Source: Oscillatoriales cyanobacterium M59_W2019_021 (lineage in GTDB: Bacteria; Cyanobacteriota; Cyanobacteriia; Cyanobacteriales; Geitlerinemataceae). Taken from it: a DNA stretch of 42,302 nt. The DNA is taken from contig DVED01000164.1 of assembly GCA_015295945.1 (NCBI GenBank), forward strand, positions 1 through 42,302, in the 5' to 3' direction. Made by a program: the position numbers and the translations under genes. Within the stretch, counting starts at the first letter, position 1. Each line of letters begins with the position of its first letter. Under the pieces are notes generated by a model. The model did not search any database. It was not told the origin of the DNA and was given only the letters and a program-made list of their open reading frames with translations. This document shows, piece by piece, positions 16,843 through 27,623 of the stretch.

Positions 16843-17601
16843 GTGCCGACCCTCCGCCCACCCCAACTCGGACAGATCGCTAGTCACCGATGGCAGTTCG
16901 CTGATATTCTAGCCCTGGCTGGGAATCTTCAGTCCTATTACCCCCGTACGGAGAGAAGAACCTTGGGAATCGAACTGCGCAGTTACGTTTATATCGATAG
17001 CTTGCAACCGCAACACGCAGCATATATCGGCACGGTGGCGGCAGGATTTTTGCCTTTGCCAGGAGATACCTCGCTGTGGGTGGAAATTTCGCCGGGAATC
17101 GAAATCAACCGCATTACCGACGTGGCAGTGAAGTCTACGTCCGTGCGTCCCGGCGTGCAGTTTATCGAGCGCTTGTACGGTTTGCTGGAGGTGCATTCGA
17201 GCAAACAGGGCGAAACGCGAACGGCGGGAAAGGCGATTTTGGCTGCCTTGGGGGTGCGCGAACAGGATCGCCTCAAACCCCGCGTGGTTTCCAGTCAAAT
17301 TATCCGCAATCTCGATCCCCATCACGTCCAGTTGATCAATCGATCGCGCCGAGGACAGATGATTCTCGCCGGACAAACTCTGTATATTTTAGAAGTGGAA
17401 CCGGCAGCTTATGCGGCGCTGGCGGCGAACGAGGCGGAAAAAGCCGCGCAAATTAATATCCTGCAAATTAGCGCGATTGGTGCCTTCGGGCGGTTGTATT
17501 TGGGGGGGGAAGAGCAGGATATCATGGCGGGGTCTCGGGCGGCGGTAGAGGCGATCGAAAATGTAACCGGACGAGAACGAAAGAGCGATCGCCGCGAGTA
17601 A
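16843..17601 (+). CDS. Tandem BMC-like (microcompartment shell) domain protein
   Basis: The 252-residue protein has two internally related halves of the bacterial microcompartment fold type. The first half runs through [16 protein letters not shown] and ends with [20 protein letters not shown] before GKAILAALG. The second ends in [30 protein letters not shown], and [20 protein letters not shown]. This second half follows the BMC pattern of EA-x-x-A-x-x-A-A-N/K-AA, a strand, an inward loop and Gly-x-x-x-A-V helix. Proteins of this kind are conserved in cyanobacteria outside the ccm carboxysome operon. Shell association is inferred, not shown. It begins with GTG 214 bases from the divergent coaD start and lacks a signal peptide. 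It is followed by the AIM24 genes after 130 bases. Confidence 0.65.
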
Positions 17602-17731: not shown

Positions 17732-18391
17732 GTGGACTGTAAAATTCGCTATAAACCCGCTTTTGCGGCAATTTTCGTCACCCTGCAACCGGGCGAATCG
17801 ATAACGGCGGAAGCTGGGGCAATGACGAGTGCAGACGGTCGAATTGACATGACCACAGAATTTTCTGGGGGGGTTTTCGCTGCCTTACTCAAGAAGTTTT
17901 TTGGCGGTGAATCTTTATTTGTCAATACCTTTAAGAACCCAACCCAGAAACCACTCACTCTAGTTCTAACTCAAGCGACAATTGGAGATATTATCGGGCT
18001 AGATTTGCGCGGGCGATCGCTGTGTTTTCAACCGGGTGCGTATATTTGCCACACGCCTGGAGTACAGTTAGGCGTTCAGTGGGCGGGATTGAAAAGTTGG
18101 TTTTCTGGAGAAGGTTTGTTTAAACTCAAGGCATCGGGACGGGGAAAAGTATTTTTTGGTGCCTATGGAGGACTGACTCGCAAACAGGTTGAGGGGGAAT
18201 TTATCGTCGATACGGGACATTTAGTCGCGTACGAACCCAGTATCCAAATGAATATCGGATTGGCAGGCGGATTGTTAGGTTCGATGACTTCTGGAGAAGG
18301 CTTTGTCAATCGGTTGACGGGAACGGGGGAGATTTATTTGCAATCTCGCAGTATCGATGGATTGGTGAAGTTTTTACGTCCTAAATTTTAA
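17732..18391 (+). CDS. AIM24-family (TIGR00266/DUF124) protein, copy 1
   Basis: This 219-residue protein has the beta-rich AIM24 fold, which has tryptophan-attenuator-like strands and is related to mitochondrial AIM24. It starts with a GTG preceded by a good ribosome binding site (AGGAGAA, 7 bases upstream). Visible signatures are LQPGESITAEAGAMTSADG, the FFGGESLFVNTFKN block, GVQLGVQWAGLKSWFSGEGL, FKLKASGRGKVFFGAYGG, and YIVDTGHLVAYE-like FIVDTGHLVAYEPS. The function of the family is not established. It is the first of three paralogues in a row, with 23 bases to the second, and is likely part of one operon. Confidence 0.9.
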   Translation: MDCKIRYKPAFAAIFVTLQPGESITAEAGAMTSADGRIDMTTEFSGGVFAALLKKFFGGESLFVNTFKNPTQKPLTLVLTQATIGDIIGLDLRGRSLCFQPGAYICHTPGVQLGVQWAGLKSWFSGEGLFKLKASGRGKVFFGAYGGLTRKQVEGEFIVDTGHLVAYEPSIQMNIGLAGGLLGSMTSGEGFVNRLTGTGEIYLQSRSIDGLVKFLRPKF

Positions 18392-18414
18392 ACCTATACA
18401 GTTCAGAAATCAAA

Positions 18415-19092
18415 ATGAATATCGAGTTATTACACCAACCCGATAGCGCGATCGCTCGCATTCTTCTCGATGCCGGAGAAGAATTGGTTGCCGAAGCCGG
18501 ATCGATGGTGGCAATGAGCGGTTTTATTAATGCCAGTACGACTCTGCGACAAGGAAAAGGTGGGGGAATTCTCGGTGGCTTGAAGCGAATGGTGGGCGGA
18601 GAATCGCTATTTTTAAGTGTTTTTCGATCGCCCGTCGCTGGTGGTGAAATTTTTATCGCTCCCAAGACGATCGGCGATATTATTCAATATGAACTATCCG
18701 GGAAAGAGTTGGTTATCCAATCAACTTCGTATCTGGCAAGCGCCTCGGATGTCGATATCGTTTTAGGCTTCCAAGGCTTCAAGTCTCTATTTTCCGGAGA
18801 AGCCATTTTTTGGCTAACTGCAAGCGGTTACGGCTCCATTTTACTCAATTCTTTCGGAGCAATTTACGAAGTCGATGTGAACGGAACCTACATTGTCGAT
18901 ACGGGTCATATCGTTGCCTTTGAGAAAAGTTTGGATTTTGAAATCACGAAAATTGGCTCGAGTTGGCTCGGCGCTTTTCTAGGAGGTGAAGGATTAGTTT
19001 GTCGCTTTAAAGGACGAGGAAAAGTATACTGTCAAACCCATAATCCCGGCTCATTCGGTCAACTCGTCGGGACTCAATTACCACCTAGATAA
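18415..19092 (+). CDS. AIM24-family (TIGR00266/DUF124) protein, copy 2
   Basis: The 225-residue protein has the same motif order as copy 1: LLDAGEELVAEAGSMVAMSG, MVGGESLFLSVFRSP, VLGFQGFKSLFSGEAIFWLT, GYGSILLNSFGAIYEVDV and YIVDTGHIVAFEKSL. It differs at most positions from copy 1, which indicates an old duplication. The Gly-rich loops and the SFGA segment between the two halves are conserved, so the fold is probably intact. It starts at an ATG 23 bases after the copy-1 stop and is followed by copy 3 after about 80 bases. Confidence 0.9.
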   Translation: MNIELLHQPDSAIARILLDAGEELVAEAGSMVAMSGFINASTTLRQGKGGGILGGLKRMVGGESLFLSVFRSPVAGGEIFIAPKTIGDIIQYELSGKELVIQSTSYLASASDVDIVLGFQGFKSLFSGEAIFWLTASGYGSILLNSFGAIYEVDVNGTYIVDTGHIVAFEKSLDFEITKIGSSWLGAFLGGEGLVCRFKGRGKVYCQTHNPGSFGQLVGTQLPPR

Positions 19093-19174
19093 GTTGGTTA
19101 TTTGTTATTTAGACTTTGGGGTAAGTAGGGAGCGCCCCCGGAACGAAACGCACCATTACCAATCACCAATTACC

Positions 19175-19876
19175 ATGACAACCATTTCCGATATTGACTA
19201 CGACATCGAACATTCTCCAGCGTATGCCTCACTGGTGTTGAATTTACGCGCCAATCAAACAGTTTTGGTCGAAGCTGGGGCGATGGCGGCGATGGATGCG
19301 TGTATTGAAATGAAATCGAAAGTGAAAGGAGGATTGGGAAAAGGTCTGGGACGGTTGGTGAGTGGCGAGTCGTTATTTATTAGCGAGTTTACTGCCAAAG
19401 AACGACCCGGAAAATTATATGTATCGCCGGGAGTACCGGGAGATATTCAGCATTATTACCTAACAAACAAAGGGTTAATGATTCAATCTTCTGGATTTGT
19501 GGCGTGCAGTTCGACGGTTCAGTTAGATACAAAATTTCAAGGGTTTAAAGGATTTTTTAGTGGCGAATCGTTGTTTTTGCTGAAAGCGACGGGAACTGGG
19601 AATATTTGGTTTAGTTCTTATGGGGCGATCGTGGAAATCCCGGTTTCTAGGGATTATGTGGTCGATACCAGCTATATAGTCGCCTTTGAAGATACGTTAA
19701 ATTATAAAGTTGAGATGTTAGGCGGATTGTCGTTCAAAGGTTTAAAAACGGGAATTTTAGGGGGAGAAGGATTGGTATGTCGGTTCAGCGGTTCGGGACG
19801 GTTGTGGGTTCAGTCTCGCGAGATCTATGGATTGCTCAACTTCTTAAACCCCTTCCGTCCGGTTAAGAGTAATTAA
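19175..19876 (+). CDS. AIM24-family (TIGR00266/DUF124) protein, copy 3
   Basis: Translation most probably begins at the ATG at 19175 (MTTISDIDYDIE), which gives 233 residues. A frame back to 19094 runs through repeat-derived DNA and is not credible. It shows the same blocks: VLVEAGAMAAMDACIEM, LVSGESLFISEFTAKE, TKFQGFKGFFSGESLFLLKA, TGTGNIWFSSYGAIVEI and YVVDTSYIVAFEDTL. Copy 3 carries a short insertion (LSFKGLKTGILGGEGLV) near the C-terminus compared with copy 1. The M48 protease gene begins 58 bases later in the same direction. Confidence 0.9.
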   Translation: MTTISDIDYDIEHSPAYASLVLNLRANQTVLVEAGAMAAMDACIEMKSKVKGGLGKGLGRLVSGESLFISEFTAKERPGKLYVSPGVPGDIQHYYLTNKGLMIQSSGFVACSSTVQLDTKFQGFKGFFSGESLFLLKATGTGNIWFSSYGAIVEIPVSRDYVVDTSYIVAFEDTLNYKVEMLGGLSFKGLKTGILGGEGLVCRFSGSGRLWVQSREIYGLLNFLNPFRPVKSN

Positions 19877-19934
19877 TCTGAAGATCGTCACCCAAGAGAG
19901 ATAAACGAATAACCAATAACTAATAACCCTGGCT

Positions 19935-20714
19935 ATGTCAATCGATCGCAATCCTCCCCCGTCCAATCGCCAATTGCTGATTTTATTAGGACTGTTTGTC
20001 GGGTTTGTTTTAGGAGTCATTGGGTTAATCGGATGGTTCATTAACGGCTTAGTGGGATTTATTCCCCCGCAAGTCGAACAAAAATTAGGGGCGATTATCG
20101 TTCCAGCTTACGAACGACTTGCCGAAAATTCAGATACCCAACAGTCGCTCGATCGCCTCTTGGATCGCTTAGAAACTCATTTGCCACCGGAACAAAAAGA
20201 AGGACGAAATTATCGCCTCTTACTGCTTCCGGAATCGACGGTAAATGCAATGGCGTTGCCGGGAGATGCGATCATCTTATACGCAGGATTGGTCGATCGC
20301 GCGGAATCGGAAAATGAAGTGGCAATGGTATTAGGTCACGAGTTGGGACATTTTGCCCATCGCGATCATTTGCGGAGTTTAGGACGGATTTTACTGTTAC
20401 GAATGGCGATCGCTTCGATATTTGGAGATGCGGGAACTTGGGGATCGATCGCCGGTTCAGTTGTGGAATCCGTTTCCCGATCGCGCTATTCTCAATCTCA
20501 AGAACTTGCAGCGGATAAATTTGGTTTGGATTTGTTACAAAAAACTTACGGTCACGTTGGCGGAGCTACAGAGTTTTTCGAGCGAATGTCGCGAAAGGTG
20601 GGGGTAGATTTTGCCTTTTTATCGACGCATCCAGATCCGGGCGATCGGGTGGCGAAATTAAAGGCTATCATTCAAGAACGAGGATATCCCATACGCTCGA
20701 TCAAACCTTTATAG
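19935..20714 (+). CDS. M48-family zinc metalloprotease
   Basis: This 259-residue membrane-anchored peptidase has an N-terminal hydrophobic helix (LLILLGLFVGFVLGVIGLIG, about residues 14-33), a linker, and an HExxH zinc site at H135-E136-H139 (VLGHELGHFAHRDHLRS). The third ligand is in QSQELAADKFGLDLL (ELAAD motif). The C-terminal part STHPDPGDRVAKLKAII is a hallmark of the M48B/Loi group. It resembles HtpX/BepA/LoiP-type proteases that act on outer- or inner-membrane proteins. It is directly downstream of the three AIM24 genes and may share their transcript. It converges on moaD with 25 bases between. Confidence 0.9.
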   Translation: MSIDRNPPPSNRQLLILLGLFVGFVLGVIGLIGWFINGLVGFIPPQVEQKLGAIIVPAYERLAENSDTQQSLDRLLDRLETHLPPEQKEGRNYRLLLLPESTVNAMALPGDAIILYAGLVDRAESENEVAMVLGHELGHFAHRDHLRSLGRILLLRMAIASIFGDAGTWGSIAGSVVESVSRSRYSQSQELAADKFGLDLLQKTYGHVGGATEFFERMSRKVGVDFAFLSTHPDPGDRVAKLKAIIQERGYPIRSIKPL

Positions 20715-26319: not shown

Positions 26320-26720
26320 AAGATTCTGTAGCGATCGCCGTTGCCCACCCAGATTCGGGGTTTGAGCGCTCTTCAAAAAGAGTCGATCGAACTCTTACGG
26401 CAATAACGATACAGCCTAGAGCGTTGACAAATGCTTGCACCTTGATGTAGTGATATTCGCTAATAAATTTTTGAAAACTTTATAAAAAACGACCCAAACT
26501 AAATCATTCTTTTAACTAACGCATTTTTCCTCTGCCTATACTCGAAGTATGGTTCTTAACAACCAGATTTAAAGGTTGTTTAACAGCCATTATTTAACTA
26601 AAAAATATGCGATCGCGATCGCATAGAAATGAGATTTCTGTCATAGCGGAAATTCGATTTTATTCCTACTGCGAGAGTTTCAACCCAGACTTTAAGGATG
26701 TTTTGGAGAGTATAGACTTT
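26320..26720 (+). promoter_or_regulatory. Long upstream region of the PEP-CTERM gene
   Basis: About 400 bases without a gene precede the PEP-CTERM gene. They contain an AT-rich segment (26450-26520), a hairpin AACAACC...GGTTGTT at about 26559-26581, and a perfect 18-base palindrome (26607-26624) made of overlapping HIP1 sites about 97 bases before the start codon. A TATACT hexamer near 26537 could be a -10. No gene can be supported in it. Confidence 0.4.
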
Positions 26721-27623
26721 ATGACTGCCATTGCCAAAAAACTACTCATCGGTGCTTCTGTTATCGCGGGCATGAGTGCTGCCAACCCCGCCTTTGCCGC
26801 CAGCATTACCGACACTTCCCTAGGCGGAACCGCTCCGAGCGATGTTTTGCTCTACTGTGCAAACGGTGGGTTTACCGAAGAATGCGATGCCCCCTTAGCC
26901 AATATTCTCCAAGGCAATAGCAGTTCCCCCGGCGGTAACGTCGAATTGGCAGCCAGCAGCGAAAAATCCGGTTTTGACTTCAGCAAATATACCAGCCTGA
27001 CCGGGAAAGTTGACGGTCGAGATATTACCCTCAGCAGCTTGACGGCGAGCGATTGGGGTGGTGGTTTTGCCCAAAAATGGTTTGGCGAAGCACTGACCGC
27101 GAACGGTTTCGATAGCCTCTTCAACAGTTCTCAGAAAACTCAATTGTTTAATCTCTTCGCCAACTACGGTGGATTTCAGCGTTTCAGCGATCCCAACATC
27201 TCTTATGTCAATCGCGATGGCAGCACTGGGAAAGTCAGCATCGGTTTAGCCGGTCACTACCAAGCCTCCACGCTGTTAACTCAGTCGATCGATAAATATA
27301 TCGCCTCCAATCAACTATCAATGTCTCAAATGATTATGGCGAATACTGCAAAGTCTGTCTTGGCAACCAAAAACATTTTCGCCAGTGAAATCGTCAAAGT
27401 GACCTACGAAGGTCAAACCCAATTGCTGTACAGCTTCGCTCCCACTCGATCCGGTTTGGTCGCGAAGGATGACGGGTTGTCTCACACTGGAAACTACGAA
27501 GTCTCGTTGATGGGAACTGCCGATCCGCAAAAAGAGGTTCCCGAACCGACGACAATGGTAGGTGGTTTGATGGCATTGAGCGGTATGTTTGCTGCCAAAC
27601 GCAAAGCTCGCAAAAAAGCGTAA
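26721..27623 (+). CDS. Secreted PEP-CTERM anchor-domain protein
   Basis: This 300-residue exported protein starts at the ATG at 26721. Its signal peptide is KKLLIGASVIAGMSAANPAF with cleavage after AFA. The body is a beta-rich, Ser/Asn/Gly-rich domain with a C-x(8-9)-C region (LLYCANGGFTEECDAPL), SGFDFSKYTSLTGKVDGRD, and GGGFAQKWFGEALTANGFDS. The C-terminus has the PEP-CTERM sorting signal: VPEPTTMVGGLMALSGMFAA then basic KRKARKKA. This motif is recognised by exosortase for anchoring or export to the cell envelope. The upstream frame to 26607 is not coding. No exosortase is in the window. A strong terminator follows. Confidence 0.9.
   Translation: MTAIAKKLLIGASVIAGMSAANPAFAASITDTSLGGTAPSDVLLYCANGGFTEECDAPLANILQGNSSSPGGNVELAASSEKSGFDFSKYTSLTGKVDGRDITLSSLTASDWGGGFAQKWFGEALTANGFDSLFNSSQKTQLFNLFANYGGFQRFSDPNISYVNRDGSTGKVSIGLAGHYQASTLLTQSIDKYIASNQLSMSQMIMANTAKSVLATKNIFASEIVKVTYEGQTQLLYSFAPTRSGLVAKDDGLSHTGNYEVSLMGTADPQKEVPEPTTMVGGLMALSGMFAAKRKARKKA

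Follow-up and report, generated by a model that had tools for sequence, protein, structure and literature searches.

A conserved trio of AIM24 paralogues paired with a membrane-anchored M48 metalloprotease in cyanobacteria and on two Bacteroidota plasmids

Four plus-strand genes stand in tandem at positions 17732-20714 of contig DVED01000164.1 (assembly GCA_015295945.1) from Oscillatoriales cyanobacterium M59_W2019_021, of which we analyzed a stretch of 42,302 nucleotides, called the window throughout. By open reading frame (ORF) calls they encode three diverged AIM24-family paralogues, designated A1, A2 and A3, and an M48-family metalloprotease. Because this old, conserved four-gene set recurs in cyanobacteria and on two Bacteroidota plasmids, the four proteins probably cooperate at the cell membrane. 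The reading we favor, at a probability of roughly 0.5, is that they constitute one functional module, in which an AIM24 heterotrimer located at the cytoplasmic side of the membrane would be paired with a membrane-anchored M48 protease facing the other side.

A preliminary description of this DNA had reported three co-directional AIM24 genes followed by an M48 gene, with 23, about 80 and 58 bases between them. The ORFs and profile matches confirm this layout, and the gaps measure 23, 82 and 58 bases (Table 1). All three AIM24 proteins match AIM24 (PF01987/TIGR00266) over the full profile and above the curated cut-offs (25.7 bits for PF01987 and 96.6 bits for TIGR00266; the cut-off for PF01435 is 20.3 bits), and A2 and A3 are each 35% identical to A1. 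The A3 ORF extends to a TTG start at 19094; the ATG start was used here. A (G/S)GE motif is found three times in each AIM24 protein by regular-expression scan, with a spacing of 62-67 residues. The signature blocks ascribed earlier to all three proteins are found in A1, A2 and A3, except that the block expected to begin with VDTG reads VDTSYIVAFE in A3. The trio lies on contig C35 of a 4.99 Mb genome, in which a search found no AIM24 gene outside A1-A3 and M48 matches at 8 places; E. coli, as a control for the AIM24 search, gave no match.

Conservation of the neighborhood was scanned with the A3 profile in named cyanobacterial genomes, using the best 80 of 174 loci, a selection that favors close relatives; from the counts below, 2 loci with under 1600 bases upstream and 6 with under 1000 bases downstream were dropped. 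Of the 78 loci whose upstream stretch reaches at least 1600 bases, 77 have A1 and A2 upstream of A3; three of the 77 are damaged or interrupted (A2 is split at L093, and A1 is in two frames at L109 and L135). Of the 74 loci whose downstream stretch reaches at least 1000 bases, 58 carry an M48 gene there; it is co-directional and no more than 1.5 kb away in 57, and no more than 400 bases away in 52. The chance of M48 as a given next gene is about 0.2%, taking 8 M48 places and an assumed 4,500 genes, compared with the 52 of 74 loci that have it within 400 bases; as the loci are related to one another, a formal p value overstates this contrast. A lack of conserved M48 adjacency had been named beforehand as what would refute the link between trio and protease, and with these numbers the link stands. 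Clustering of the flanking proteins placed AIM24 at 80 loci and M48 at 59, the next commonest family reaching 12 of 80, and at the 26 trio loci without an adjacent M48 no downstream family that might substitute for it occurs in more than 3 loci. On a 75-row A3 tree, the M48 label requires 9 changes, of which well supported branches force at least 4, and M48 adjacency has therefore changed several times. Two loci carry long interruptions within the trio itself: at L094 (2578-8001) about 5.4 kb separate A2 from A3, and at L093 (5246-7682) the A2 gene is split by about 2.4 kb.

The association also appears in whole genomes. Two samples of cyanobacteria were surveyed, an even sample of 291 genomes and a sample of 59 relatives, with 26 genomes shared and a union of 324. 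AIM24 occurs in 63 of the 291 genomes of the even sample and the main trio in 18, and the M48 type is found at E<=1e-60 in exactly these eighteen; this limit was chosen after the hits were seen. The M48 gene lies downstream within the fetched stretch in 12 of these (in G056 behind one other gene) and elsewhere in six. In the sample of relatives, a tandem of three with main-type scores is found in 21 of 59 genomes, 20 of which have the M48 type; the 11 trio genomes new to this sample were judged by position and score only, and in the 10 of them with M48 the gene lies just downstream of A3. The one trio genome without it is G329, 61% complete and with its A3 gene broken. Over the union, the M48 type at E<=1e-60 is present in 28 of 29 trio genomes and in 0 of 295 others. 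At a looser limit of 1e-40, two trio-less genomes match (G004 and G018, at 39-41% identity), and at 1e-30 three more do (G002, G060 and G290). This survey and that of the named genomes overlap and so are not independent, 4 of 28 A3 hits being identical to named-genome ones over the last 200 residues.

The M48 link belongs to this trio and not to AIM24 in general, because the window M48 (blastp, 1e-5) found no match in 16 stretches around other cyanobacterial AIM24 genes (L065-L080, some of them short). Tandem AIM24 pairs were also seen in family f17, in G221 (L066) and G332. The G221 pair, soon after which the contig ends, consists of each other's nearest kin in the tree and so reflects a separate duplication.

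Outside the cyanobacteria, only two of 42 plasmid hits have three AIM24 places, those of Flammeovirga kamogawensis and Aureibacter tunicatorum, and the Bacteroidota side rests on these two plasmid records. Here the order is M48-AIM24-AIM24-AIM24, with M48 first and 2 to 19 bases between genes; six other AIM24 plasmid stretches that were opened have no annotated M48 neighbor. In an 84-row AIM24 tree, which left out trio rows of 180 amino acids or less and single rows under 170 amino acids, Bacteroidota genes 1, 2 and 3 join the A1, A2 and A3 clades with support of 100/100, 100/100 and 100/96, respectively. As judged from this tree, the Bacteroidota and cyanobacterial trios are one-to-one orthologues in the same order, an orthology that makes the three AIM24 lineages older than the split of both copy sets, whether that split came by descent or by transfer. 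Two earlier proposals gain from these results: the idea of ancient retained duplicates is supported by clades A1-A3 spanning two phyla, and that of a functional set by the M48 adjacency and by the recurrence of trio and M48 in a second phylum. The tree neither supports nor rejects A1, A2 and A3 as one clade apart from single-copy AIM24. A phage or mobile origin of AIM24 was also considered and was dropped, with no relative in viral_contigs and one distant phage record.

The M48 protein of the window is assigned to Peptidase M48 by its PF01435 match, its HExxH motif and a distal glutamate. HExxH and a distal ExxAD-type motif are present in 69 of 69 M48 orthologues, the window's included (65 distinct sequences; those of 230 amino acids or less were dropped). 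Over the same 69 sequences the predicted transmembrane segment has a median Kyte-Doolittle value of 2.91, the 15 residues before it are net positive in 56 and those after it are neutral or negative in 68, while a crude lipobox pattern fits 5. The protein is thus predicted to be a membrane-anchored zinc protease with its catalytic domain facing the periplasm or thylakoid lumen, an orientation proposed because the charge is positive before the segment and neutral or negative after it. The two Bacteroidota M48s are longer (380 and 372 amino acids; L177:3463-4605 and L178:3475-4593), with about 105-115 residues preceding the hydrophobic segment and no Pfam match above cut-off in that region; this N-terminal extension is a possible docking domain for AIM24.

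Table 1 Features of the AIM24-M48 locus in the window
Feature	Position	Strand	Details
A1, first AIM24 paralogue	17732-18391	+	219 amino acids, GTG start; PF01987 208 bits, TIGR00266 217 bits
A1 GE motifs	GGESLF 17903-17920; motif 2 18104-18121; motif 3 18290-18307	+	regular-expression scan
A2, second AIM24 paralogue	18415-19092	+	225 amino acids; PF01987 215 bits, TIGR00266 185 bits
A2 GE motifs	GGESLF 18595-18612; motif 2 18793-18810; motif 3 18982-18999	+	regular-expression scan
A3, third AIM24 paralogue	19175-19876	+	233 amino acids from ATG 19175; PF01987 220 bits, TIGR00266 242 bits
A3 GE motifs	SGESLF 19361-19378; motif 2 19559-19576; motif 3 19760-19777	+	regular-expression scan
M48-family metalloprotease	19935-20714	+	259 amino acids, one N-terminal transmembrane segment; PF01435 93.8 bits
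Predicted transmembrane segment of M48	19974-20030	+	residues 14-32; Kyte-Doolittle 19-residue mean 2.98
HELGH zinc-binding and catalytic motif of M48	20337-20351	+	residues 135-139; H135, E136 and H139 invariant in 58 sequences

No strong hydrophobic segment is found in A1, A2 or A3 (Kyte-Doolittle maxima of 1.24, 1.27 and 0.99), and the three proteins should be cytoplasmic. The set may act at the cell envelope, although only M48 among the four proteins has a strong transmembrane segment. The loops ahead of GE motifs 1 and 3 are hydrophobic, rich in glycine and nearly or wholly free of acidic residues; they are mostly basic, loop 3 of A1 only slightly so.

Structure prediction made use of locus L063, where the trio genes share a frame and can be read through, with stops as glycine, as one artificial fused protein. 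The alignment of 46 rows, its placement checked, includes the window proteins as rows; the modeled sequence is that of L063. AlphaFold2 returned a mean predicted local distance difference test score (pLDDT) of 76.7 and a predicted template modeling score (pTM) of 0.78 for the fused A1-A2-A3; a rough pTM formula puts three independent domains at 0.30-0.37 and one assembly at 0.68-0.81. Judged from these summary scores alone, the model suggests one three-domain assembly. The model has the AIM24 fold (1yox, Z 20.9 over 191 residues; 1pg6, Z 19.1 over 205 residues), and VIA-align gave nothing else above Z 4.5, which does not exclude other relatives. Nine segments have a pLDDT under 50: the two linkers and seven others, each of which stops at or extends into a GE motif. 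Since low-pLDDT segments end at GE motifs and the loops have the composition described above, the glycine-rich hydrophobic loops near these motifs may form a membrane-facing surface.

A further indication of joint function comes from one cyanobacterial family in which six genomes have a fast-evolving trio and no M48 of this type (L042, L047, L048, L050, L051/L052 and L057, one trio being split over a contig end); genome G135 of the same family has the main trio and M48. Four of the six divergent trios were placed in the tree, where the three genes of each continue to group with the A1, A2 and A3 clades. The divergent-trio proteins (18 proteins or large fragments) have 0 or 1 GE motifs each, versus 2 to 4 in 78 main-trio and Bacteroidota proteins; among the other cyanobacterial and plasmid AIM24 proteins listed, 4 of 24 have 0 or 1 (AIM24 ORFs of 150 amino acids or less were left out of the count). 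Ten main trios without M48 retain their GE motifs, which means that the absence of M48 does not by itself explain why the motifs were lost. Joint loss of the motifs with all three genes kept is as expected for the subunits of one assembly.

In the arrangement we consider most likely, A1, A2 and A3 would form one heterotrimer with one copy of each, held against the cytoplasmic face of the membrane by the loops ahead of the GE motifs, which are glycine-rich, hydrophobic and mostly basic. The heterotrimer would scaffold membrane complexes or lipids, a role played in yeast by Aim24 from the matrix side, and M48 would carry out quality control at this membrane site from the periplasm or lumen side. 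The sequences themselves establish gene content and order, orthology, co-occurrence and the conservation of protease residues. The assembly (from pTM) and the transmembrane topology are predicted; we infer the AIM24 membrane binding, the scaffold role and the M48 substrate.

Several observations weigh against this arrangement. Of 14 named trio genomes without an adjacent M48, 10 yielded no match at E<=1e-20 (Laspinema and Oscillatoria with three each and four further genomes, two of which are uncultured-genome records), though these are drafts and some M48 genes may be missed; one has only a distant M48 (2.4e-29). The remaining three have M48 elsewhere, in one case as two open frames, and two trio genomes with an adjacent M48, included as controls for the whole-genome search, both matched. 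M48 therefore goes with the trio in most lineages but is missing from some, in which it is dispensable. A3 stands alone at one locus (L136, in a 2.1 Mb genome), and neither L136 nor L159 has M48 within the fetched stretch, to which the search was confined. Another AIM24 tandem, of three distant matches in another lineage (L065, G035), has no detectable M48 nearby. Branches are long in the M48 tree, which leaves out L011 and, of six other own-genome M48 loci taken for it, L008 and L010, neither of which matched the profile. In this tree the Bacteroidota M48s fall outside the cyanobacterial M48 clade, which points either to two separate origins of the pairing or to rapid divergence of the protease.

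The models and loops add further cautions. A fused four-gene read-through (L060, alignment placement checked) gave a pTM of 0.54, at the bottom of the range calculated for a trimer with an independent M48 (0.54-0.64) and below that for a docked M48 (0.70-0.81); docking of M48 on the trio is thus not predicted, and the four-gene model gives no sign of it. The M48 catalytic domain should in any case lie across the membrane from cytoplasmic AIM24. Fusion forces the domains into proximity, and the predictor may be reproducing a homotrimer. As to the putative membrane-facing surface, loop 2 of A2 and A3 contains acidic residues, and the loops are just moderately more hydrophobic than the protein average.

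An alternative that we consider somewhat unlikely is that the AIM24 proteins are subfunctionalised homo-oligomers serving different conditions, with M48 co-regulated and no hetero-complex formed. Many genomes have single-copy AIM24, two other AIM24 proteins have been solved (1pg6 and 1yox), and paralogues only about 35% identical could each have its own partner. The near-invariant complete set and order are difficult to reconcile with independent homo-oligomers, as are the joint loss of most GE motifs from all three proteins in one family and the pTM of the fused trio.

Also improbable, and more clearly so, is a passenger cassette spread by horizontal transfer, whose adjacency would reflect joint transfer and not joint function. 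Such a cassette would account for the patchy presence of the genes (12 of 13 other genomes of the window's family in the sample of relatives lack AIM24), for flanks that differ between loci and for the plasmid location in Bacteroidota. It would not account for M48 being kept though unlinked in six genomes, nor for its position before the trio in one phylum and after it in the other, and no transposase-like family was recognized among the flank families in at least 5 of 80 loci (first residues, by eye, without a search). Membership of the four genes in a TerD-type stress (tellurite) system is very improbable: passages of PMC5822837 place a TIGR00266 gene in the ter cluster of Psychrobacter genomes and, citing Anantharaman 2012, describe AIM24 as a frequent neighbor of TerD, but the one TerD found in the window's genome is on contig C40 and the trio on C35, and the two Bacteroidota plasmid stretches have no annotated TerD neighbor.

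The favored heterotrimer-protease module can be extended to a bolder proposal, which we regard as unlikely: a bacterial membrane-organizing module with an obligate AIM24 heterotrimer inside and M48 outside, found in at least two phyla with possibly independently recruited proteases. It would be a counterpart of an Aim24-scaffold/OMA1-type arrangement at the mitochondrial inner membrane, a pairing that is itself a guess. OMA1 is likewise grouped with the M48 proteases, and the window M48 may be comparable to it.

Elsewhere in the window, ccmP, a gene for a beta-carboxysome protein (16843-17601), lies directly upstream of A1, and a MoaD/ThiS-like gene follows M48 on the opposite strand. Neither ccmP nor any other of the window flanks (DivIVA-like, coaD, MoaD-like, NAGPA-type, a membrane protein, DUF4336 and truB) was found beside the trio at any of the 80 other loci. 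Promoter-like sites in the stretch number 5 versus 4.8 expected, the level of shuffled sequence, and terminator-like sites 7 versus 4.1 (standard deviation 1.8), all four plus-strand ones lying inside A2. The C terminus of the ORF at 26607-27623 resembles, by eye, a PEP-CTERM sorting signal.

The AIM24 and M48 families are known, and the fixed trio with a protease is a variant undescribed in the literature searched, outside which most subscription papers fall. AIM24 domains are present in all three domains of life, according to part of PMC6162560, and a passage in PMC5822837 states that no prokaryotic role had been ascribed to them. A complete ordered paralogue trio in two phyla, with an M48 that tracks the trio even when unlinked, gives AIM24 proteins a definite partner and an assembly open to testing. 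This finding raises the questions of whether the complex is 1:1:1, whether it binds membranes and whether trio and protease mutants share a phenotype.

Among known systems, BepA and LoiP share with the window M48 the catalytic domain with HExxH, and the nearest solved chains by sequence are 3c37 and BepA. The window protein differs in scoring far below the NCBIfam cut-offs of both (61.3 versus 570 bits for BepA and 64.7 versus 365 for LoiP; HtpX is likewise below, at best 23.6 versus 369) and in having one transmembrane anchor and no Pfam match other than M48. Ter group I, as outlined in part of PMC5822837, likewise holds AIM24 within a small conserved gene set; membership was considered and rejected, TerD being on another contig in the window's genome and M48 standing beside the trio instead. 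Yeast Aim24 is described in passages of PMC3975624 as firmly bound to the inner membrane, on the matrix side or within the membrane, and as part of a complex of about 400 kDa needed for integrity of the mitochondrial contact site and cristae organizing system (MICOS). Like the window proteins, it has an AIM24 domain and no predicted transmembrane segment (parts of PMC3975624 and PMC6162560); it differs in being the product of one gene, of 391 amino acids, and in its setting with MICOS and cardiolipin metabolism. The solved AIM24 proteins 1yox (PA3696) and 1pg6 (SPyM3_0169) belong to the family that all three window genes match over full length, and their fold is shared by the orthologous-trio model; the titles of those entries give a locus name or state that the function is unknown, whereas here three AIM24 lineages stand in fixed order with an M48 protease.

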